A stretch of 64,000 nucleotides of DNA from Methanoplanus sp. FWC-SCC4 (GTDB taxonomy: Archaea; Halobacteriota; Methanomicrobia; Methanomicrobiales; Methanomicrobiaceae), in NCBI RefSeq assembly GCF_032878975.1, contig NZ_CP043875.1, positions 1,852,370 to 1,916,369 on the forward strand. Direction: 5' to 3'. Below the pieces are notes generated by a model, which did not search any database, had not been told where the DNA came from, and saw only the letters and a program-made list of their open reading frames with translations. Made by a program: the position numbers and the translations under genes. Of this stretch, positions 5,631 through 55,133 are shown in pieces. Position 1 is the stretch's first letter; every line of letters begins with the position of its first letter.

Positions 5631-8600
5631 TCATAAAAGTCTTTTTAAAGCCATTTTTTTGGCTTTGAGGGCTCCTTCATGCCCGGGCTTTAGAATGAGA
5701 GCCTTTTCAAAACATTCAAGAGCAAGATCATATTTTCCTGTTTTGCCATATACCAGACCAAGTGAAAATATCATGTTGGCATTGGTTTTATCCAGTGCAA
5801 ATCCGTGACTGAAACACTTTATTGCAGAGTCGTAGTAACCTTTTTTGGTGAGGGCAAGACCTTTTCTGTAGAGATATCCCGGATCTTTTAACATCTCAGG
5901 CGAGGGTTTGTCAAAAACAACAGTTCCGGATTCGTCCACAAAAGATTCGGATTTGACATCTTTTGAATAATCCCCTGCACTTTCCGGTTTCATTTTTGAC
6001 CCCTGCGAAACACCGGAGAGGAGATCCTGTCTGATAAATGAAGTTGCATCAATGCCCCTCTCCGCCCAGAGTTTTCCGTATTTTGGATCAATATCTATTG
6101 TTCTGAGATAACATTCAAGAGCACCCTCAGAGTCACCCAGTTTAAGCAGAGCAAGACCCTTGTTCAAAAGAGCCCTTACATCATCAGGCCTGGTTTTTAA
6201 CGCATCCGAAAAGGAGGCAACCGAATCCTCATATTTTTCCGCAGACATTAGAGCAATTCCCTTTGATATCATAAGGGAGATCTCATCCGGCATCAAAACA
6301 ATCAGATTATCATAATACTCAACCGATTCTTCATAAAGACCAAGATCATGGAGAACTTCTATTAAATCAAGAGTTATATACCGGTCCCCAGGCTCTTTCC
6401 TGACAGCAGACCTTAAAAGAACAGCGGCTTCATCAGCTCTTTTCAGCTTCATTAATGCCCTTCCCTTGTCTGCCATAAGTCCGGCATCATTGGGATTCTG
6501 GACAATCAGCATATCATACAAAGGCAGGGTTTCCTGATATCTCCCCTTTGATAGAAGAATTCTCAGTTTTCCATGAAGGGCTTCCTGCATACCGGGGATT
6601 TTTTCAAGTATCTTTGTGTATGCAAAAAGTGCCTCATCAGATCTGCCCATCCGCTCATAAAGTCCACCAAGGGAGAGCAGTGCATCCTCGTTACGTGGCT
6701 CAAGAGCTGTAATCTTTTTGTAATCAACTATTGCCTCGTCAATATTTCCTGCGGCCTCTTCCAGTGATGCTTTTGAGAAAAGTATGCTTACATCATCAGG
6801 ACTGTATTTTGCAGCCATGCCAAAGGCAGAAAGGGCACCGTTGAAATCACCGGTCTTCTCAAGTATTTTACCCTTCATAAACCACAGATAACCTGAATTT
6901 CCCTCTTTTGCAAGAATTTCCTCAAGATCTGATAATGCTTCCCCGTATCTTCCAAGATTTTTGAGAATCAGGGCTTTTTCAATCAGTGCATCCACGTCAC
7001 CAGGCGAAAGCAGAAGTGCTCTCTCAAAGTCACTAAGAGCATCATCATAACGCCCAAGAGTACGAAGAACAAGACCTCTTGAATACCACAATGCATGATT
7101 ATCAGGATTCCCTACAAGAAGGCGCTCATAACATTCAAGAGCATCTTCGTGTTTTTCAATTTTTACGAGCGATATGGCACGTTTGACAAGTGCTTTTGTA
7201 TTGTCGGGCTCATATGAGAGTACTCTGGCGTAATCATCTGCGGATCTTGAATAATTTCCTGCTTTTTCATTTAGCAATCCTCTTTTGAGCCACAGATCAG
7301 GATTTTGGGGATTTTCATCCAGAAGTATGCCGAGAATAGAAAGGGCTTCACCATCCCTGCCTGAATTTTCCAAAACCTCTGCCTTCTTTTGAAGAATTTT
7401 CTCATCACGGCTCTTCAGGTTCAGGGCAGAGTCATATGAGAGAATGGCCTCATCATACATTCCTGATCTTGAGAAGAGGTCACCTTTTAATTCATACAGT
7501 TCAAAGCTCGCGGGAACAATTAAGGAAAGCTTCTCCATGCATGAAAGTGCCTCTGCATTCCTGCCGGATGTTGAGAGTATATCCAGTTTATGACGCAGGG
7601 CTTTTTCTGTATCCCCGCCTGACGAAATTACCTCATCATAAAGCGCCAATGCCTCATCAAAAAGACCTGCCCCCTCTTTTGCAAGAGCATAATCCATTAT
7701 GATATCAATATTGCCTTCAATGGCGGTTTTATGATCGTCAAAACAGGAAAGAGCTTCATTGTATCTGCCAAGGAGGGTTAGTATATGTCCCTTCCCAAGA
7801 GATGCGGCAGAATCTTTTGGTGATATGGAAATTACCTGTTCAAAAGAAAACAGAGCTTCATCATAACGCTCCATTTCAAGAAGTATTTCCGCTTTTTTGG
7901 TCATAAGTTCAGGACTCTCAGAATCCGCTTTTAAAAGTTCATCGAGGTAATACAAAGCGTCATATAAAAGATCTTCACCTTTGCTCAGCTCATAAAGCCT
8001 TAGGAGAACATCCCTGTTTTCAGGTTCATTAACCAGTATTTCCTTAAACAGGCCTTTTGCCTCTTCTGTGTTGCCGGATTCAAGGGCTTTTAGCCCTTCT
8101 GCAAAAAGCCTCTCTGATATGGGAATTTCCTCAGCCACTGAGGATACCAACGTCTCATCTGCTGAAGAGATTTCAGAGACCAAAGAATCATCAGGGCTTT
8201 CGAGATCAAGACCGGAAACTTCCATTGAATCTTCTGATACAAAAGAATCTTCTAAAACCTCACCAACATCAGGTTTTTCGGATTCAGAAACCAAAAGGGC
8301 AGAATCCGATAAATCCAAATCAGAAAGTTCCAGATCTTCAGCCAGATCTAAAGATTCAGAAGGGATTTCAGAGACCAAAGAATCATCAAGGCTTTCGAGA
8401 TCAAGACCAGAAACTTCCATTGAATCTTCTGATACAAAAGAATCTTCTAAAACCTCACCAACATCAGGTTTTTCGGATTCAGAAACCAAAAGGGCAGAAT
8501 CCGATAAATCCAAATCAGAAAGTTCCAGATCTTCAGCCAGATCTAAAGATTCAGAAGAGATTTCAGAGACCAAAGAATCATCAAGGCTTTCGAGATCAAG

Positions 8601-9917
8601 ACCGGAAACTTCCATTGAATCTTCTGATACAAAAGAATCTTCTAAAACCTCACCAACATCAGATTTTTCGGATTCAGAAACCAAAAGGGCAGAATCCGAT
8701 AAATCCAAATCAGAAAGTTCCAGATCTTCAGCCAGATCTAAAGATTCAGAAGGGATTTCAGAGACCAAAGAATCATCAAGGCTTTCGAGATCAAGACCGG
8801 AAACTTCCATTGAATCTTCTGATACAAAAGAATCTTCTAAAACCTCACCAACATCAGATTTTTCGGATTCAGAAACCAAAAGGGCAGAATCCGATAAATC
8901 CAAATCAGAAAGTTCCAGATCTTCAGCCAGATCTAAAGATTCAGAAGGGATTTCAGAGACCAAAGAATCATCAAGGCTTTCGAGATCAAGACCGGAAACT
9001 TCCATTGAATCTTCTGATACAAAAGAATCTTCTAAAACCTCACCAACATCAGGTTTTTCGGATTCAGAAACCAAAAGGGCAGAATCCGATAAATCCAAAT
9101 CAGAAAGTTCCAGATCTTCAGCCAGATCTAAAGATTCAGAAGAGATTTCAGAGACCAAAGAATCATCAAGGCTTTCGAGATCAAGACCAGAAACTTCCAT
9201 TGAATCTTCTGATACAAAAGAATCTTCTAAAACCTCACCAACATCAGATTTTTCGGATTCAGAAACCAAAAGGGCAGAATCCGATAAATCCAAATCAGAA
9301 AGTTCCAGATCTTCAGCCAGATCTAAAGATTCGGAAGTGATTTCAGAGACCACAGAATCATCAGGGCTTTCGAGATCAAGGTCGCAAACCTCCAATAAAT
9401 CTTTTGAAACAGGAGATTTTCCAGAAACTTCAGGAACAGAGGATTTGGAAGGCATTTTGGATACAAAAGAAACATCAGAAACTGTTACTCCGGCTTCTGA
9501 TTCTAACAGACCAGGTATTATATCAGGTATTTCTTCAGGCCCTGCACCTGTTGCAGGAACCCCGGAGGGCAGAGCATCCTTTGAGATACCCAAAAATAAA
9601 TTCTCAGGCTCCTTTTCCTGATCTAATTTTTCCTGATCCAATTCATCCGTTATTTTGCCGTGTTCAATGGGCTCAATGTGGCGCGCCCATTCAAACATCT
9701 GTTCCATTTCCTGAAGAACAGTCTCTAAAAGATGTGAATCCTCAGGTATTGATACGTGTACACCGTTTTTTAGCGGCTCGACATATAATATATTATAGCT
9801 TGAAAAAACCCCCTTTAAATCATCAGGCTTTATTGAATCAAACGATATTGAATACTCAGACGGGTATAATATTCCATCCCCTGTCTCACGATATTTTATA
9901 ATATTTACCTGCGCCAT
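5631..9917 (-). CDS. Giant TPR protein with an internal array of 65-residue acidic repeats
   Basis: About 1428 residues. I chose the ATG at 9917 over the one 15 bases upstream because GGAGGGG lies five bases before it. Residues about 1-110 form a unique domain with no family I recognise. A Ser/Asp/Glu/Leu-rich region follows that contains six nearly identical 65-residue units (DNA at 8169-9338) with the recurring words ESLDLAEDLELSDLDLSDSALL and EVLEDSFVSEDSMEVSGLD. The remaining roughly 850 residues are a long run of TPR units (for example ALWYSRGLVLRTLGRYDDAL). It has no signal peptide. It probably acts as a large scaffold whose acidic array is a flexible spacer or binding platform. Function unknown. 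Confidence 0.9.
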   Translation of the reverse strand: MAQVNIIKYRETGDGILYPSEYSISFDSIKPDDLKGVFSSYNILYVEPLKNGVHVSIPEDSHLLETVLQEMEQMFEWARHIEPIEHGKITDELDQEKLDQEKEPENLFLGISKDALPSGVPATGAGPEEIPDIIPGLLESEAGVTVSDVSFVSKMPSKSSVPEVSGKSPVSKDLLEVCDLDLESPDDSVVSEITSESLDLAEDLELSDLDLSDSALLVSESEKSDVGEVLEDSFVSEDSMEVSGLDLESLDDSLVSEISSESLDLAEDLELSDLDLSDSALLVSESEKPDVGEVLEDSFVSEDSMEVSGLDLESLDDSLVSEIPSESLDLAEDLELSDLDLSDSALLVSESEKSDVGEVLEDSFVSEDSMEVSGLDLESLDDSLVSEIPSESLDLAEDLELSDLDLSDSALLVSESEKSDVGEVLEDSFVSEDSMEVSGLDLESLDDSLVSEISSESLDLAEDLELSDLDLSDSALLVSESEKPDVGEVLEDSFVSEDSMEVSGLDLESLDDSLVSEIPSESLDLAEDLELSDLDLSDSALLVSESEKPDVGEVLEDSFVSEDSMEVSGLDLESPDDSLVSEISSADETLVSSVAEEIPISERLFAEGLKALESGNTEEAKGLFKEILVNEPENRDVLLRLYELSKGEDLLYDALYYLDELLKADSESPELMTKKAEILLEMERYDEALFSFEQVISISPKDSAASLGKGHILTLLGRYNEALSCFDDHKTAIEGNIDIIMDYALAKEGAGLFDEALALYDEVISSGGDTEKALRHKLDILSTSGRNAEALSCMEKLSLIVPASFELYELKGDLFSRSGMYDEAILSYDSALNLKSRDEKILQKKAEVLENSGRDGEALSILGILLDENPQNPDLWLKRGLLNEKAGNYSRSADDYARVLSYEPDNTKALVKRAISLVKIEKHEDALECYERLLVGNPDNHALWYSRGLVLRTLGRYDDALSDFERALLLSPGDVDALIEKALILKNLGRYGEALSDLEEILAKEGNSGYLWFMKGKILEKTGDFNGALSAFGMAAKYSPDDVSILFSKASLEEAAGNIDEAIVDYKKITALEPRNEDALLSLGGLYERMGRSDEALFAYTKILEKIPGMQEALHGKLRILLSKGRYQETLPLYDMLIVQNPNDAGLMADKGRALMKLKRADEAAVLLRSAVRKEPGDRYITLDLIEVLHDLGLYEESVEYYDNLIVLMPDEISLMISKGIALMSAEKYEDSVASFSDALKTRPDDVRALLNKGLALLKLGDSEGALECYLRTIDIDPKYGKLWAERGIDATSFIRQDLLSGVSQGSKMKPESAGDYSKDVKSESFVDESGTVVFDKPSPEMLKDPGYLYRKGLALTKKGYYDSAIKCFSHGFALDKTNANMIFSLGLVYGKTGKYDLALECFEKALILKPGHEGALKAKKMALKRLL
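8169..9338. repeat. Six tandem 195-bp coding repeats
   Basis: The word gatttcagagacc recurs at 8169, 8364, 8559, 8754, 8949, 9144 and 9339, exactly 195 bases apart, giving six full units with degenerate flanks. The units differ by only a few bases (aggttttt versus agattttt; agggattt versus agagattt; ccggaaac versus ccagaaac), so near identity holds at the DNA level, including silent sites. Because 195 is divisible by three, the array stays in frame inside the giant TPR gene. This indicates recent expansion or homogenisation by recombination. Confidence 0.97.
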
Positions 9918-47916: not shown

Positions 47917-48405
47917 TCATTCCAGCCGGTTTTCAAGAGAATCAAGGGCCTCAATTATAGTCGCAGTCTCCGGTTTCATAATCGCAACCGGCACCTCCAC
48001 AACCTTTTCAATTATTGATGCAAGAATCGGTGCGCAAACTATCCCCGAAGCACCCTCCTTTTCAGCCCTGACGGCTGATACAATGCATTCCTCCATCGTA
48101 TATGCAGGATATCCCCTTATTTTATATTTCTCCTCCCCGATTGTCACCCTTCTGGATTCAACCTCGTCAAGCAGGAATTTCGCGGCGATGACTGCTACAA
48201 ATTTATTATCATGAGGTTCAAGTGCCCTTACTATCGCCTGAACAGTTGAAAACCTTGGATCTCTTTCACCCGACGTGATTTTGTAGACTGTTGCCGGGGG
48301 TATTTTAGCCCTCTCTGCAAGCTCTTTTATGCTGACTCCCTTTCTTTCGAGCTCTTCTTCCAGAGCAGCCTTAAAACCAATCTGAAATATTCTCTGCGAA
48401 AACAT
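47917..48405 (-). CDS. HTH transcriptional regulator, possible TrpY-like
   Basis: 162 residues. An N-terminal XRE-type helix-turn-helix (GVSIKELAERAKIPPATVYKITSGERDP, about 24-50) is followed by a small ligand-binding-like domain (GYPAYTMEECIVSAVRAEKEGASGIVCAPILASIIEKV) that slightly resembles substrate-binding folds. Its promoter contains a TTGTACAA palindrome (48423-48430), the same TGTACA box as in the trpB2 promoter at 28383-28408. A TrpY-like role in tryptophan control is therefore attractive, but family identity should be checked by profile search. Confidence 0.7.
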   Translation of the reverse strand: MFSQRIFQIGFKAALEEELERKGVSIKELAERAKIPPATVYKITSGERDPRFSTVQAIVRALEPHDNKFVAVIAAKFLLDEVESRRVTIGEEKYKIRGYPAYTMEECIVSAVRAEKEGASGIVCAPILASIIEKVVEVPVAIMKPETATIIEALDSLENRLE

Positions 48406-48494: not shown

Positions 48495-49043
48495 TCAGAT
48501 ATGGCATGATAATACCAGACAATCCTCATCAGAATATTCCGCAAAATTATCCGGTGAAAAACTCAGATAATCCCCTGTCGGAAACAGATGACCTCCGTAT
48601 CCGGTGTAAAGCCCGTCATATACCCTGTAAAACGACTCAGACGATTTATTGTACCCATCCATATCCCCGGATGATGCACCTCTTAAAGCCTCATCCAGAT
48701 ATTTTTTTAGTAAATCTGTATTCATGCCGTCAGATTCGGCCTCCTTTAACAGACGACTCATTTCGGGGAGTTCATCTGCCGGTGTTATCCTTATCTCAGG
48801 ATAGAGGATATCCATATCTGTATCCAAAACTGCCCCTAAATCAGACTGAATTAAGGAGAGAGGAACACATTCCTCTTTAAGCCCTGTTAATCCCATGTTT
48901 ATGTTTTTTGAAAACAAACAAATTTTTGAACCCATGTTAATCTCTGTCCGGGTGATGCAAGGGTCTTCAATTATATCCTGTATCATTTTTTCGCCTTTTT
49001 TACTCGTACCGGAGATGAAGGATTCCGGTAACTCCTGCCTCAT
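48495..49043 (-). CDS. Hypothetical protein
   Basis: 182 residues, no membrane helix, signal peptide or known motif. Four cysteines are scattered. The C-terminal half is rich in Tyr, Ser and Asp (SESFYRVYDGLYTGYGG). I recognise no family. It lies alone between the HTH regulator and the coenzyme M cluster, pointing away from the latter. The reading frame is long and free of odd codon use, so it is probably real. Confidence 0.6.
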   Translation of the reverse strand: MRQELPESFISGTSKKGEKMIQDIIEDPCITRTEINMGSKICLFSKNINMGLTGLKEECVPLSLIQSDLGAVLDTDMDILYPEIRITPADELPEMSRLLKEAESDGMNTDLLKKYLDEALRGASSGDMDGYNKSSESFYRVYDGLYTGYGGHLFPTGDYLSFSPDNFAEYSDEDCLVLSCHI

Positions 49044-49356
49044 TGAATATAAGATTCATTTCAAAATGGTATAAATGATTAAAACATAACCCATTCAAAA
49101 GACTAACCTGATGGTTAAACACCTGCACCAAAACCATTATTCGATGAGTTAAAAAACCAAAAACAGCCGGGTAAAACAGACCCGATAAATGCCCCCAGAA
49201 AACCCCTGAAATTTATGCACAGGACAATTCAATCATACAATATCTCGTACTTTTTTATACATAACGCCAATCTCAAAATGTAATTTTGTTATTAAAGTAT
49301 CAATTATTTGATCATAATGGAACAGTTTAAACAATATGATGCATTAAAAATAATGC
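49044..49356. other. Promoter region of the coenzyme M cluster
   Basis: 313 bases without a gene. A TATA-like ttttttatacata is at about 49251-49263. Further downstream are GTTTAAAC (49325-49332) and a perfect palindrome that reaches into the first start codon (49339-49358). These are the only strong regulatory features seen. Confidence 0.45.
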
Positions 49357-49358
49357 AT
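49339..49358 (+). promoter_or_regulatory. Perfect 20-base palindrome spanning the start codon of the ABC ATPase gene
   Basis: ATGCATTA-AAAA-TAATGCAT, eight-base arms around a four-base spacer; its last two bases are the first two of the ATG at 49357. No Shine-Dalgarno sequence precedes the start. The palindrome could be an operator or, in RNA, a hairpin that controls initiation of the first gene of the coenzyme M cluster. Confidence 0.6.
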
Positions 49359-50136
49359 GCACCTGCATAAAATAGAAGAAATAACAATTCTGCCGGGAAA
49401 TAACAGAAACGGGGATACAGAAAATTTTAATAAAATAACAATAAAACCGGGAGATACAATCTCGGTTGTAGGGCCAACCGGCTCGGGCAAAAGTGCACTG
49501 ATAAACGATATAGAGATTTTTGCAAAAAAAGATACAAACACAAAGAGGACAGTGCTTGTAAACGGCGACTATCCTCCCGAAGATTTCATCCGTGACCCTT
49601 CAAAAAAGCCCGTCGCTCTTATTACACAGAATACAAAATGCCTCGCTGACTTAAGCGTTGAAAATTTCCTTGAAATGCACGTCCGCTCAAGGAAAATAAC
49701 TGACGAAAAAATAATTCAGGAGACAATAACGCTTGCAAACGAGTTCACAGGCGAAAAAATAAAACCTCATGTGAGGATGACCTCACTTTCAGGCGGCCAG
49801 ACAAGATCACTGATGGTTGCCGATGCAATAATGATATCAAACGCACCGATAATTCTGCTTGATGAGGTTGAAAACGCAGGAATCTTCAAGGAAAAGGTGA
49901 TAGAATGCCTCAAAAAGCACAACAAGGCGCTTATTTTTGTAACACACGACCCACTCGTTTCCCTCATGTCAGGGCGAAGGATTGTAATGAAAAACGGTGC
50001 AGTTGAAAAAATTCTTGAGCCGGGGGAAGAAGAAAAAGAGGCACTCTCTGATATAATACAAATGGACGCTGCATTGTGCTCAATGCGTGAGAGAATACGT
50101 GCCGGGGAAATTATCAGGAGCATATCACTTACATGA
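49357..50136 (+). CDS. ABC-type ATPase of the coenzyme M cluster
   Basis: 259 residues, a single ABC ATPase domain without membrane helices. Walker A GPTGSGKSAL, signature LSGGQTRSLMVADAI, Walker B and D-loop in IILLDEVENAG (unusual DEVENAG), His switch in FVTHDPLVS. It lacks a permease partner. It resembles soluble ABC ATPases such as the methyl-CoM reductase component A2 type more than importers. The stop overlaps the next gene (ATGA). An ATP-driven activation role in coenzyme M synthesis is inference from linkage. Confidence 0.8.
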   Translation: MHLHKIEEITILPGNNRNGDTENFNKITIKPGDTISVVGPTGSGKSALINDIEIFAKKDTNTKRTVLVNGDYPPEDFIRDPSKKPVALITQNTKCLADLSVENFLEMHVRSRKITDEKIIQETITLANEFTGEKIKPHVRMTSLSGGQTRSLMVADAIMISNAPIILLDEVENAGIFKEKVIECLKKHNKALIFVTHDPLVSLMSGRRIVMKNGAVEKILEPGEEEKEALSDIIQMDAALCSMRERIRAGEIIRSISLT

Positions 50137-50840
50137 AGCTGATAGTCATAGCAGGCCCTCCGTCTGCCGGAAAAACCGCCGTTGTGAGACAGATTATTTC
50201 ACACTTTAAGGAGACAAAAAAGTGTGCATACCTAAAAATAGACGTTGTGAGAGCCTTTGAGGATGAGGAGCTCAGGGAAGAGTTTCAAATCCCCACAAAA
50301 AAGGTTTACTCAGGCGATGTCTGCCCTGATCATGTGGGAATCCTTGTGATGAAGGACACAATAAAATGGGCTGAAGAGGAGAACGCCGATCTTTTAATCG
50401 TCGAGAGTGCGGGACTCTGCCTCAGGTGCTCGCCTTATACCACCCAGTCGCTTGGAATTGTCGTATTAAGTGCGGTCTCAGGGATTAACACACCGCTGAA
50501 GATGTCAGCAATGCTTGCACTTGCCGACACCGCCGTTGTTACAAGGATTGATCTGGTGTCACAGGCTGAAAAAGAGGTATTCCGGGAGAGAATTAAGGAA
50601 GTAAGCCCCGGCCTTGACATAGTTGAGACAAACGCCGTTCAGGGAACAGGCCTTAGATATCTCTTCAGGGCGGTTGAAAACCAGGCCGAAGTAACCGATC
50701 CTGAAAAGATTGTCCTGAAAGGAGCCGCTCCTCTCGGAGTCTGCACTGTCTGTGCAGGCAAAAAGGAGATTGGCTGGCAGAATCACTTCGGTGTGATCAG
50801 ACAACTTGACGGGGCCGAATTTATGTTCAGGGGTGAATAA
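50133..50840 (+). CDS. G3E-type GTPase (HypB/CobW-like) of the coenzyme M cluster
   Basis: 235 residues. P-loop GPPSAGKTA (residues 8-16), Walker B LLIVESAGLCLRC, and a TRIDLV base-recognition-like sequence. Additional cysteines: GDVCPDHV, GLCLRC, and a C-terminal CTVCAGKKEIG, suggesting metal or cluster handling like HypB/UreG metallochaperones. Overlaps the ATPase by four bases. Cofactor or metal delivery to the Fe-S proteins downstream is the likely role, not proven. Confidence 0.8.
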   Translation: MKLIVIAGPPSAGKTAVVRQIISHFKETKKCAYLKIDVVRAFEDEELREEFQIPTKKVYSGDVCPDHVGILVMKDTIKWAEEENADLLIVESAGLCLRCSPYTTQSLGIVVLSAVSGINTPLKMSAMLALADTAVVTRIDLVSQAEKEVFRERIKEVSPGLDIVETNAVQGTGLRYLFRAVENQAEVTDPEKIVLKGAAPLGVCTVCAGKKEIGWQNHFGVIRQLDGAEFMFRGE

Positions 50841-50842
50841 AT

Positions 50843-51514
50843 TTGAAGGCTCCAAAAAAAAAGGACTGGAAACCCCCCGGCAAAGACTGCGGTGCATGCG
50901 GTGCAAAAACCTGTGAGGAATTTACAGGGTTTTTAAAAGAAGGCATAAAGGAAGAGGAAGACTGCCCGTTTTACAATGATTTGGAAGATGAAGATTCAAA
51001 AATCCTGCCTGAAGAAAAAATCTGTTTGAAAGGAGAGGCTGTTTACGGCGACACTGACATCCTGAACAAACCCTTCGATTTCATACTGCTTCCGTTCAAA
51101 GGAGAGCCGTCCGCACGAAAGATCGTTCTTCCGTTCAGGCCTGATCTTACTGAAAAATGGGAGATCAAAAAAGGCGATATCGTCCTTGGAAGACCGATGG
51201 GTGCGGGGTGCCCTGTCCAGCATATTTTATCAGTGATTGATGCAGATTACGTGACCGGAGTCTTAACCTGCCATGTAGTAAGTCCGCTTGTTGCAAGAAA
51301 CAATCCGGAGAAGGTAAAGGACATAAAAGCCTATCACATGCTCGGCTTTGAGGGAATTGCAAAAACAGCTGCAAAAAAACCAAAATTCGGACACCGACAA
51401 AGATTCCTGCCGGGATACTGCATGATGAATCTCGGACACACCGGACTTGTAAATATGGTAATAGAGCGTGATTCCGGCACACATGTGAGAGTGGAGGACG
51501 TAATAATATTATGA
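50843..51514 (+). CDS. Fe-S cluster-binding protein of the coenzyme M cluster
   Basis: 223 residues from a TTG (50843), two bases after the GTPase stop. N-terminal cysteine motif CGACGAKTCEEF ... DCPFY matches the 4Fe-4S domain of the PF04060 type (CXXCXXXXC...C). The rest contains KIVLPFRPDLTEKWEIKKGDIVLGRPMGAGCPVQH with no family I recognise. Stop overlaps the ComF-like gene start (ATGA), so it likely supplies electrons or a cluster to it. Its conservation next to ComF-like genes should be tested. Confidence 0.75.
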   Translation: MKAPKKKDWKPPGKDCGACGAKTCEEFTGFLKEGIKEEEDCPFYNDLEDEDSKILPEEKICLKGEAVYGDTDILNKPFDFILLPFKGEPSARKIVLPFRPDLTEKWEIKKGDIVLGRPMGAGCPVQHILSVIDADYVTGVLTCHVVSPLVARNNPEKVKDIKAYHMLGFEGIAKTAAKKPKFGHRQRFLPGYCMMNLGHTGLVNMVIERDSGTHVRVEDVIIL

Positions 51515-52767
51515 AGACAATAGCCGATATAAACAATAAAATAAAAAGCGGAAAAGCGGTAGTCTACACAGCATCAGAGTTCAAGGAGCTTGTCAGAGAA
51601 AATAAAACCCCCTCCGCTGAGGAGGTGGATGTTGTAACCTGCGGCACATGCGGGATTATGTCAGGAACATTTGCAGTCATGACAGTTCCGGTTGGAGAGC
51701 CGGGAGCCTTCAGGCGTGCCGAATCGATAACACTCAACGGAGTGCCGGCGTTCCCCGGGCCCTGCCCGAACGAGGGCCTTGGCACAGTAGACCTGATCGT
51801 CTACGGCACATCCCATGCAGACGAATCATACGGCGGAGGACACCTTCTCCGCGATATCGTTGAGGAGAAGGAAATCGAGGTTGTTGCCGTATCAGAAGGA
51901 AAAACTTATGAAAATCTGATATACGGAGAAGACATACAGTCCGCACGCCTGATTACCTCAAGAAGCGCCTTTAAAAACTACTCTGCAATAGTGAACCGGG
52001 ATACAGACCCCTATAACACTATCTTTTCTGTCCTTCCGCTCATAGGAGGACTCTCAGAGGCAACCGTCAGCGGATGCGGTGAAATAAACCCGCTGCAAAA
52101 CGACCCCTTTATGAGATTCATAAAGGCAGGGGCAGGGATTCTCCTAAACGGGGCTCCCGGTTTTATAATGGGCACCGGTACAAGGAGCAGTCAGGAGAAG
52201 CCGAACATCGCCGCATTTGCGGATATGAAAGATATGTCGCCTGAGCTGATGGGCGGCTTTATAACTTCGGCAGGCCCTGAATGTCTGGTATCAGTCGCCG
52301 CCGCAATCCCGGTTACTGATGAGGAGACGATTAAATCCCTTTCAGTTCTCGATGAGGACATACCGCTTCCTGTTGCCGACGTAAAACACAGGGAAACAAT
52401 AGGATACTCAGATTACGGACAGATTTGGCAGAACACGGATCACAGGGTTATAGTGAACCCCTTAAACTGTATGTTCTGCGGAGAGTGCCCGGCTGCTGTA
52501 GCCTGTCCGACAAAGGCGATAATGCCCGGAGGGGGAGTTATTTTCTCACGCTGTGTCTCATGCGGAACATGCACAACAACATGTCCGGGAGAAGTCTACA
52601 CAATGGAGATGGGCACAATAAAAGTCGGGGATCAGGAAATTCCGGTTACACTAAGGCAGTCTGACAGGACAAAGGGAGAAGAGATCAGCGCAATGTTAAA
52701 AGATATGATAAACAGGGGGCATTTTTCCTTCTGTGATACAGGAGAAGAGAAAGATGGGGGAATATGA
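51511..52767 (+). CDS. comF: ComF-like coenzyme M synthase (COG1900/DUF39 domain plus 2[4Fe-4S] ferredoxin)
   Basis: 418 residues. A COG1900/DUF39 domain (with C44 and C47 in CGTCG and C189 in SGCGE) is followed by a ferredoxin domain with two four-cysteine motifs starting at C320 (CMFCGEC ... CP) and C348 (CVSCGTC ... CP). COG1900 proteins insert sulfide into aldehydes to make homocysteine; a relative, MJ1681 (ComF), was reported to make coenzyme M from sulfoacetaldehyde. Position beside cysteate synthase and ComDE favours the ComF role over homocysteine synthesis. The assignment is inference from context plus domain. Confidence 0.8.
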   Translation: MKTIADINNKIKSGKAVVYTASEFKELVRENKTPSAEEVDVVTCGTCGIMSGTFAVMTVPVGEPGAFRRAESITLNGVPAFPGPCPNEGLGTVDLIVYGTSHADESYGGGHLLRDIVEEKEIEVVAVSEGKTYENLIYGEDIQSARLITSRSAFKNYSAIVNRDTDPYNTIFSVLPLIGGLSEATVSGCGEINPLQNDPFMRFIKAGAGILLNGAPGFIMGTGTRSSQEKPNIAAFADMKDMSPELMGGFITSAGPECLVSVAAAIPVTDEETIKSLSVLDEDIPLPVADVKHRETIGYSDYGQIWQNTDHRVIVNPLNCMFCGECPAAVACPTKAIMPGGGVIFSRCVSCGTCTTTCPGEVYTMEMGTIKVGDQEIPVTLRQSDRTKGEEISAMLKDMINRGHFSFCDTGEEKDGGI

Positions 52768-54025
52768 ACTAAAATGCCCGGTATGCAGGGCAACAGTTCC
52801 GGATCATTACACCAATGAATGCCCGGAAAAGTGCAGCGGCCTGATTTTGGCAGAATACAAAGAAAAGCAGTTTATCCCAAAGGGTCTCCCCGGAATGTTC
52901 AGGTATCACAACTGGCTTCCGGTGGAGGGTTACAGGGATGTAAAAACAGGCCCGGCAACTTACAAGAGCAAGGCGCTTGCCGAAAAACTCGGGCTAAAAA
53001 ATCTGTATATCTGCTTTAACGGCTACTGGCCGGAAAAAGACGCATGGATTAAGACCTGTTCGTTCAAGGAGCTTGAGGCCGTCCCGACAATGCTCAGGAT
53101 GGAGGAGAAAGGAAGCGGAATCCTCCAGATCTCATCTGCCGGAAACACGGGCAGGGCATTTTGTGAGGTTTCGGCTGATACTGGCGTTCCTGTCATAGTT
53201 GTCGTTCCAAAATACGCAACAGAAAGCATATGGACGACAAAACCCGCAGAAGATGTATTCCTGATCACAATAGACGGCGACTATACCGATGCAATTGAAT
53301 TCGGGAACAAACTCTGTCAGATGGAGGGGATAATCCCTGAAGGAGGGGCAAAAAACCCAGCAAGACGTGACGGAATGGGGACTACGCTCCTGAGCGGTTT
53401 TGAGGCGGCAGGCATGATTCCCGACTGGTACTTCCAGGCTGTCGGGAGCGGAACAGGTGCAATTGCAGCGTGGGAGATGTCAAAACGCCTCGTTTCAGAC
53501 GGAAGATTCAAAGACAGGCTTCCCCGGCTTTACCTCTCGCAAAACATCCCCTTCATCCCGATGGTCAGTGCATGGAATGCAAAAAGGCGTGAGATTATTG
53601 AAGATGTTGATATGCCTGACGCTAAAAACTCGGCCATGTCTGTTTATGCAACAGTTCTTACAAACCGCCACCCGCCGTACAGCACAAAGGGCGGCCTTTT
53701 TGATGCACTCACAGAAACCAACGGAATTATGGAAGGTATCGAAAGTAAACGGGCAGAAGAGGCAGCGGAAATTTTTGAAAAACTTGAAGGAGCCGACACT
53801 GATCCAGCGGCTGCCGTCTGTGTTGCCTCACTCATTGATGCAGCAACAAAGGGGGTTGTAAAACCTGATGATGTTATCCTCCTCAATATCACAGGCGGAG
53901 GCTACAAAAGGGCTGATTTGGATTTTGAAAAGATCATTGTTGAACCAAAGGTATCCCTGCCGGCAGGAAGCGATACCGGAGTTATAAAAGACGAACTTGT
54001 AAAATGGATGAGTAACTATGCTTGA
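52754..54025 (+). CDS. Cysteate synthase (threonine synthase-like)
   Basis: 423 residues from the ATG at 52754 (good aggag upstream); an earlier frame start at 52733 is less likely. PLP enzyme of the threonine synthase family, with zinc-like cysteines at the start (CPVCRATVPDHYTNECPEKC), the PLP-lysine region TYKSKALAEKLG and SSAGNTGRAF as the phosphate loop. Methanosarcina's cysteate synthase, which turns phosphoserine and sulfite into cysteate, has this architecture and the same neighbour. It overlaps comF and ComDE, so the enzymes are co-produced. Confidence 0.9.
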   Translation: MGEYELKCPVCRATVPDHYTNECPEKCSGLILAEYKEKQFIPKGLPGMFRYHNWLPVEGYRDVKTGPATYKSKALAEKLGLKNLYICFNGYWPEKDAWIKTCSFKELEAVPTMLRMEEKGSGILQISSAGNTGRAFCEVSADTGVPVIVVVPKYATESIWTTKPAEDVFLITIDGDYTDAIEFGNKLCQMEGIIPEGGAKNPARRDGMGTTLLSGFEAAGMIPDWYFQAVGSGTGAIAAWEMSKRLVSDGRFKDRLPRLYLSQNIPFIPMVSAWNAKRREIIEDVDMPDAKNSAMSVYATVLTNRHPPYSTKGGLFDALTETNGIMEGIESKRAEEAAEIFEKLEGADTDPAAAVCVASLIDAATKGVVKPDDVILLNITGGGYKRADLDFEKIIVEPKVSLPAGSDTGVIKDELVKWMSNYA

Positions 54026-55133
54026 GGATTTTGTCTGCGACATGCTAAAAGAACAGGGGATCGAGTTTATTGTATCCCTTCCCTGTGACAGAACAAAGGA
54101 TCTGTGTGCACTCATGGAGGCCGGCTTTCACTATGTAAACATAAACCGCGAGGAGGACGGGGCAGGTGTCTGTGCCGGACTTGCACTTGCAAAGAGAAGG
54201 TTCGTCCTTCAGATGCAGAGCTCGGGGCTTGGAAATTCCCTGAATGCAATGATGTCCCTGACAGAGCTCTATAAAATGCCCCTCCCGGTCATTGCAAGCT
54301 GGAGAGGATATTACAAAGAGAAGATTCCTGCACAGATTCCGTTCAACAGCAAAATCCCAAGGATTCTTGATGCACTCGAAATTAAATACACAATCATATC
54401 AGAGCCGGATGAACTGGTAAAATTAAAAGACGTGATTGAGGATGCATACGAAAACTCGAGAATCCACGTTGCCCTAATCTCACCAAAAGTCTGGGAGGGT
54501 GAAAGCTGCAAATGCCCTGTCAGAATTGTTCCTGACAGAAAAAGGGAGATACATATCGAGTACACACGGGAGATTCACGAGCCTGTGATGAAAAGGGCTG
54601 ATGCAATAGGTGTTGCGGCAGAACTTTTAAAAAATGAACTTACAGTCTCCAACATAGGTGTTCCTTCAAAGGAGCTCTATGCGGCTAATGACAGGCCGGA
54701 AAATTTCTACATGCTCGGAAGTTATACGCAGGCAACACCGATTGGTCTCGGCCTCGCAGTAGGACAGGACAGGGATGTAATTGTACTTGACGGCGACGGA
54801 AGTCTTCTTGGAACGGCCATTATGCCGGCTGTTGCAGCTGAAAACCCAAAAAACCTAACAATTGTTGCCCTTGACAACGGAGCATTCGGAAGTACCGGAA
54901 GTCAGCAGACACATGCATGGACAGGGTGTGATCTTGAGCTGATGGCGATCGGTGCCGGGATTAAAGACACATTCAAGGCTAACTCAGAGGAGGATCTAAA
55001 AGAGGCCCTTTTAAAGAGAACAAACGGCCCGAAGTTCATACATGTCATATTAAAACCCGGAAACACAGATGCACCAAATATCAAAACAGGGCCTGAAGAG
55101 ATTAAGAAAAGATTTCAGGATTCCTTCTTATAA
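54018..55133 (+). CDS. comDE: Sulfopyruvate decarboxylase, fused ComD-ComE
   Basis: 371 residues. Thiamine diphosphate enzyme that decarboxylates sulfopyruvate to sulfoacetaldehyde. The N-terminal half (about 1-170) is ComD-like (PYR domain, NREEDGAGVCAGLALAKRR); the C-terminal half (about 190-371) is ComE-like with the ThDP motif G259-D260-G261 ... VALDNGAFGSTGS. In Methanocaldococcus the two halves are separate genes; here they are fused, as in other Methanomicrobia. Overlaps cysteate synthase by eight bases. Last gene of the cluster. Confidence 0.94.
   Translation: MLEDFVCDMLKEQGIEFIVSLPCDRTKDLCALMEAGFHYVNINREEDGAGVCAGLALAKRRFVLQMQSSGLGNSLNAMMSLTELYKMPLPVIASWRGYYKEKIPAQIPFNSKIPRILDALEIKYTIISEPDELVKLKDVIEDAYENSRIHVALISPKVWEGESCKCPVRIVPDRKREIHIEYTREIHEPVMKRADAIGVAAELLKNELTVSNIGVPSKELYAANDRPENFYMLGSYTQATPIGLGLAVGQDRDVIVLDGDGSLLGTAIMPAVAAENPKNLTIVALDNGAFGSTGSQQTHAWTGCDLELMAIGAGIKDTFKANSEEDLKEALLKRTNGPKFIHVILKPGNTDAPNIKTGPEEIKKRFQDSFL

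Follow-up and report, generated by a model that had tools for sequence, protein, structure and literature searches.

A soluble ATPase, GTPase and iron-sulfur protein module found in methanogen coenzyme M operons and in bacteria, with a possible role in metal and sulfur handling

The 64,000-nucleotide stretch of Methanoplanus sp. FWC-SCC4 DNA analysed here (contig NZ_CP043875.1, positions 1,852,370 to 1,916,369; hereafter the window) contains three genes, encoding an ABC-type ATPase, a HypB-like GTPase and a PF04060 iron-sulfur (Fe-S) protein, which run directly into genes for coenzyme M (CoM) biosynthesis. This trio, as the three are called below, may be a general soluble, nucleotide-driven module for handling metals, Fe-S clusters or sulfur that has been recruited to CoM operons, a reading to which we give a probability of roughly 40%. 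It is based on gene order, sequence motifs, distribution, genomic neighbours, phylogenetic trees and a domain model, from which we infer both the chemistry and the client enzymes. The run consists of the following genes:

49357-50136, plus strand: ABC-type ATPase, soluble, 259 amino acids, PF00005
50133-50840, plus strand: HypB/CobW-type GTPase, 235 amino acids, PF02492
50843-51514, plus strand: Fe-S protein, 223 amino acids, TTG start, PF04060
51511-52767, plus strand: ComF, also known as methanogenesis marker 16 (mmp16), CoM synthase; COG1900 plus ferredoxin domain, TIGR03287, function from PMC12068725
52754-54025, plus strand: cysteate synthase, TIGR03844, best start the ATG at 52754
54018-55133, plus strand: ComDE, fused sulfopyruvate decarboxylase, TIGR03845 and TIGR03846

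Read directly from the open reading frames and their junctions, the six genes are packed into positions 49357-55133, each overlapping the next by 4-14 bases except for one pair that stands 2 bases apart. ATGA overlaps join the ABC ATPase gene to the GTPase gene and the Fe-S protein gene to comF, 2 bases separate the GTPase and Fe-S protein genes, and the overlaps amount to 14 bases between comF and the cysteate synthase gene and to 8 bases between the latter and comDE. The gene types, coordinates and overlaps given in a first-pass annotation of the sequence are correct. ComF (526 bits against a cut-off of 364), cysteate synthase (597 against 325) and ComDE (204 against 148 for TIGR03845 and 234 against 222 for TIGR03846) all exceed the curated cut-offs, which marks the run as a CoM biosynthesis neighbourhood. 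No membrane permease is encoded among the six genes, so the ATPase does not qualify as part of an ABC importer or exporter. The window genome has one trio copy; its unit lacks a NifS-type cysteine desulfurase, and SufB/D, IscU and NifU have no match among the proteins of the six-gene run, the loci of relatives having been searched less than exhaustively for these.

In archaea, the trio is linked to the CoM pathway. The sample comprised 194 genomes of the phylum, with order labels inferred from the family grouping and gene content of the loci; Methanobacteriales and Methanococcales lie outside it, and their inclusion rests on PMC12068725. A trio-type GTPase is present in 48 of these genomes, ComF in 88 and the two together in 44 (Fisher p = 1.5e-14, uncorrected for kinship). 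The two genes lie within 10 kb of each other in 33 of the 44, and in the remaining co-occurring genomes that were inspected the trio mostly adjoins cysteate synthase, which bears out the connection to the pathway made in the first-pass annotation. That no study assigns the trio, as the annotation also held, is true of its function but not of its location: genes for an ATPase, a Ni-binding GTPase and a COG2000 Fe-S protein have already been reported as often co-localised with CoM genes across methanogen orders, their role being stated as unknown (Chadwick et al. 2025, PMC12068725, Fig. 2 legend). A literature search for COG2000 returned no further relevant paper.

Two principal arrangements are seen. 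In the Methanomicrobiales-type order the ABC ATPase, GTPase and Fe-S protein genes are followed by ComF, cysteate synthase and ComDE (L011, L012, L014, L016, L018 and L022-L024), as in the window. This order, the 4-base overlap with comF, the close spacing in 33 of 44 genomes and the ferredoxin domain of ComF are all consistent with a trio dedicated to ComF, which it would provide with ATP-driven activation, clusters and electrons, as the first-pass annotation proposed. Such a dedicated role nevertheless appears rather improbable. A trio-type GTPase is missing from 44 of the 88 ComF genomes; conversely, G036, G049 and G167 have a trio and no ComF, as does G003 with a partial copy, and in f21 and G166 the trio adjoins cysteate synthase with ComF located elsewhere. 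MMP16 (ComF) is the main CoM synthase of Methanosarcina acetivorans and functional there (PMC12068725), and in this species cysteate synthase and comDE directly adjoin each other (PMC12713407, Table 2), hence no trio stands between them. Since half of the ComF genomes lack the trio, and since it is common in bacteria that are almost devoid of COG1900 proteins, service to ComF specifically is not supported. The observation made in the first-pass annotation is confirmed, and its interpretation as a whole is partly supported.

In the Methanosarcinales-type order the trio stands between cysteate synthase and ComD and ComE, with ComF divergent (L031, L032, L034 and L038), or ComF is elsewhere (L036, L037 and L040). 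The position between these genes, or after cysteate synthase, would agree with a service to an upstream step, that is, with sulfite supply or handling for cysteate synthase or an action on cysteate synthase or ComDE and not on ComF. We consider this highly improbable: none of the three families suggests a sulfite-forming activity, and in ANME-1 (L028/L051) the trio copy is next to ComF, while cysteate synthase was not detected over a distance of about 9 kb. A second trio copy in G187 (L021:8932-16441) adjoins genes for a RamA-type corrinoid activase, a corrinoid protein, a UROD-type methyltransferase and an NMT1-like binding protein.

The ABC ATPase has intact Walker A (GPTGSGKS), signature (LSGGQ), Walker B (LLDE) and H-loop (THD) motifs, and all catalytic motifs are conserved across 21 aligned relatives. 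The best NCBIfam match of the GTPase is HypB (TIGR00073) at 69.8 bits, below the cut-off of 121.2. Its Cys64 and His67 align with the Cys-His metal motif of the HypB G domain, Cys96 and Cys99 are close to the second cysteine of HypB, a C-terminal CxxC (Cys204 and Cys207) is extra with respect to HypB, and all of these residues are invariant among 25 sequences. The Fe-S protein, which is the COG2000 protein of Chadwick et al. (2025, PMC12068725), carries at its N-terminus the PF04060 cluster motif with the invariant Cys16, Cys19, Cys24 and Cys41. This domain is nearest to the large subunit of the corrinoid iron-sulfur protein (CFeSP; PDB 4djd, E = 1.5e-7) and to RnfB, and no Pfam match to the TIM-barrel and corrinoid-binding domains of CFeSP/AcsC is found in the 223 residues. 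Next, the C-terminal beta domain contains Cys123, His127, Cys193 and His199, which are invariant in all aligned rows, and many bacterial forms of the protein have additional cysteines. An AlphaFold2 model of the protein has a mean predicted local distance difference test score of 87.7, with the beta domain confident. In a fold search against the PDB no chain reached E < 0.001 and only the cluster domain was recognisable; the C-terminal domain has no Pfam or NCBIfam model either. As modelled, it is a candidate for a new metal-binding fold.

In many bacteria the trio is found beside genes of sulfur metabolism. A genome scan with the GTPase alignment, whose sampling favours ANME-1-type relatives, found at least 573 related GTPases, and the best 80, at 55-67% identity, were examined; apart from L051 and one Thermoplasmata metagenome-assembled genome, they come from bacterial genomes and metagenome-assembled genomes of many phyla. 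The ABC gene lies beside the GTPase gene in 74 of the 80 loci and the Fe-S gene in at least 63, and the ABC/GTPase overlap of the window recurs in many bacterial loci. No CoM genes were found near the bacterial trios, and a COG1900 protein is present in only 3 of 50 bacterial trio genomes; the first-pass annotation had named a wide occurrence without CoM genes nearby as evidence against its own proposal, and a trio specific to CoM is rejected by these copies. A NifS-type cysteine desulfurase (476 bits against a cut-off of 531) is encoded inside the unit in 35 of the 80 mainly bacterial loci, and directly upstream of it an Rrf2-type regulator, for which the nearest named model is CymR (76 bits, below cut-off), is found in 26. 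Among the archaeal copies, L026 has a NifS-type desulfurase gene (7965-9128, minus strand) between the GTPase and Fe-S genes, and no ComF nearby.

When neighbouring genes were clustered without preselection, CysK and MetY came out as the families that recur most, leaving aside the module and its regulators. Against whole-genome rates in the same 50 genomes, with loci counted by a BLAST threshold and genomes by hidden Markov model matches, 0.39 MetY genes were expected and 14 were counted, spread over 8 of 50 loci, and CysK, with 0.49 expected, was present in 9 of 50 loci; in this one sample the two lie near the trio about 20 times above expectation, although the Poisson values ignore kinship between loci and are inflated by it. 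The loci concerned span Omnitrophota, Acidobacteriota, Chloroflexota, Actinomycetota, Myxococcota and Bacteroidota, and MetX, MetW and ThiF/MoeB-like genes, identified by eye, recur near the trio as well. A gene for the radical SAM maturase HydE belongs to the operon in L115 and L117 (335 bits in L117, above the cut-off) and lies beside it in L095, all three being units with NifS. Only 21 of 51 genomes with a trio have a HydG match above the cut-off, which indicates that the link to hydrogenase maturation is not general, and a tie of the trio to [FeFe]-hydrogenase maturation was rejected.

The evolutionary history of the module also bears on its association with CoM. In the trees of both the GTPase and the ABC ATPase, the CoM copies of Methanomicrobiales group with the bacterial trios and those of Methanosarcinales join a DUF364-linked pair; support is starred in both trees, as if CoM operons had acquired such a module twice. 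The pair belongs to a sister system that comprises a DUF1858/SBP_bac_6 protein, a HypB-like GTPase and an ABC ATPase and lacks the Fe-S protein (archaeal loci L033, L035 and L042-L049; L131-L146 and others in Clostridia; L171-L176). The sister pair adjoins DUF364 proteins in methanogens and a hybrid-cluster (prismane) protein in Clostridia, which fits a metal-cluster theme without proving it; neighbours of the system also include DUF4213 proteins, transporters and an 80-residue Cys-rich protein. The spread of the GTPases is patchy, with any such GTPase in 2 of 201 Chloroflexota, 9 of 198 Acidobacteriota and 37 of a Bacillota set of 250, many of them belonging to the sister system, as would be expected of a mobile metal-homeostasis or redox operon that landed in the CoM cluster by chance and has no functional link to it. 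Against such an insertion, which appears decidedly improbable, stand the two separate lineages in CoM operons and the order with overlapping stops and starts that is conserved across families. The trees may equally fit one ancient CoM-linked ancestor with repeated losses, and whether there were two entries or a single ancestor, a chance association is unlikely.

The reading as a general metal- and sulfur-handling module is preferred because of the NifS gene in 35 of 80 loci and in L026, the Rrf2 regulator, the CysK/MetY neighbourhood, the Cys-His site shared with HypB, the CFeSP-like N-terminal domain, the four further invariant cysteines and histidines, and the two lineages in CoM operons. 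It gains further support from the hybrid-cluster protein beside the sister pair and from component A2 of methyl-CoM reductase (MCR), a precedent for a soluble ABC ATPase that drives metalloenzyme activation (PMC12176620). Several points weigh against it. The single-ancestor history and the kinship among loci noted above are two of these. ComF works in Methanosarcina without a trio in the CoM cluster. CysK and MetY are pyridoxal phosphate enzymes that elsewhere act on sulfide in free form without any helper. For Chloroflexota and Acidobacteriota the loci obtained belong mainly to the sister system, and it is the Bacillota sample that bears on replication of the CysK/MetY link; there, a sulfur-gene link is seen in just 2 of about 17 loci with a trio, and NifS was not found in these loci, which implies that the CysK/MetY link is real in some clades but not universal. 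Finally, 2-oxoacid:ferredoxin oxidoreductase (POR_N, TPP_enzyme_C) is a recurrent neighbour of the trio in one clostridial clade (L164:11303-13284). Genes for this enzyme are also close by in the sister loci L162 and L166.

This POR-type neighbourhood is among the points in favour of the main rival, a low-potential reductive activator that uses ATP hydrolysis to push electrons by way of the CFeSP-like Fe-S protein onto a difficult acceptor, comparable to the activation of CFeSP by RACo or of MCR by component A2 (PMC12176620). The resemblance of the Fe-S domain to the CFeSP large subunit and RnfB, the RamA-type activase, corrinoid protein and methyltransferase genes beside the L021 copy, and the reduction that is needed to convert sulfoacetaldehyde to CoM all agree with it. 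It is nonetheless unlikely, as it leaves the NifS in the unit, the CysK/MetY neighbourhood and the HypB-like metal site unexplained, and the ABC protein is not a reductase ATPase of the ASKHA or NifH type.

If the trio is a metal- and sulfur-handling module, the GTPase would act as a metallochaperone in the manner of HypB, with metal bound at its Cys/His site, and the ABC ATPase as a conformational motor for loading or release. The Fe-S protein would be the carrier or scaffold, with a [4Fe-4S] cluster in the CFeSP-like N-terminal domain and a second metal or sulfur site at the Cys2-His2 set of the C-terminal domain. NifS would serve as the sulfur source in many bacteria, for which free sulfide may substitute in methanogens. 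The product would most likely be cluster- or metal-bound sulfur or a metal-sulfur centre, and the clients would be enzymes that insert sulfur into carbon, namely ComF in methanogens and perhaps CysK/MetY-type sulfhydrylases in bacteria. A role in metal, cluster or sulfur handling, as also suggested by the first-pass annotation, is plausible. A more specific version is doubtful, if conceivable: the trio, together with NifS where sulfide is scarce, would form a so far undescribed, energy-dependent sulfur-delivery system whose Fe-S protein, by means of its new C-terminal domain, carries metal-bound sulfur to carbon-sulfur-inserting enzymes in bacteria and archaea, and which would be the missing helper in the CoM synthesis of many methanogens.

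Upstream of the trio the window contains three further features:

47917-48405, minus strand: XRE-type helix-turn-helix regulator, divergent from the trio
48495-49043, minus strand: open reading frame of 182 amino acids that separates the regulator from the trio and is unmatched in Pfam and NCBIfam
49339-49358, no strand: perfect inverted repeat ATGCATTA-AAAA-TAATGCAT with a 4-base spacer, before and overlapping the ABC start codon

Homologues of the regulator with 57-76% identity likewise precede the trio in divergent orientation in L011 (7152-7643), L015 (7818-8306), L016 (10602-11090) and L030 (10311-10868), which makes the protein a candidate regulator of the CoM operon. The inverted repeat is a possible operator; no equivalent was seen in those upstream sequences of relatives that were read.

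The mechanism by which ComF converts sulfoacetaldehyde to CoM is an open question, as is the source of its sulfur and electrons (PMC12068725). If the module feeds this step, CoM synthesis in many methanogens would rely on a nucleotide-driven helper, one that the species studied so far, M. acetivorans, lacks in its CoM cluster, and the bacterial trio copies would allow the role to be tested outside methanogens. The co-localisation with CoM genes is published; new, as far as searches could tell, are the bacterial form linked to NifS, the existence of two lineages, the HypB-type site and the carrier domain without a structural match.

The trio can be compared with several known systems. First, like HypB, UreG and CobW (the G3E proteins), its GTPase is a PF02492 P-loop GTPase and keeps the HypB Cys-His motif, with a cysteine pair beside the second cysteine of HypB; in contrast to them, it falls below the HypB and UreG cut-offs, has the extra C-terminal CxxC and is paired with a soluble ABC ATPase, and the run contains no hydrogenase or urease gene. 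Next, the Fe-S protein shares the N-terminal PF04060 cluster domain with the CFeSP large subunit (AcsC/CdhE), and a coupling of nucleotide hydrolysis to a low-potential Fe-S protein, as in activation by RACo or RamA, is conceivable, although the trio has no corrinoid domain, its C-terminal domain matches no solved fold and its ATPase is of the ABC type. Component A2 (AtwA) is likewise a soluble ABC ATPase of methanogens and, together with Fe-S proteins, acts on an enzyme linked to CoM (PMC12176620), but it is a tandem two-domain protein acting on MCR, whereas the trio ATPase has a single domain and is accompanied by a GTPase. With the SUF, ISC and NIF systems, many bacterial copies have in common an ATPase, a scaffold-like Fe-S protein, a NifS-type desulfurase and an Rrf2 regulator, while the window unit is without SufB/SufD, IscU or NifU and the trio adds the HypB-like GTPase and the new carrier domain. 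Finally, the sister system has a paralogous GTPase and ABC ATPase, at roughly 35-48% identity, and differs in having no Fe-S protein and in its other partners, which are DUF1858/SBP_bac_6, DUF364 or hybrid-cluster proteins.

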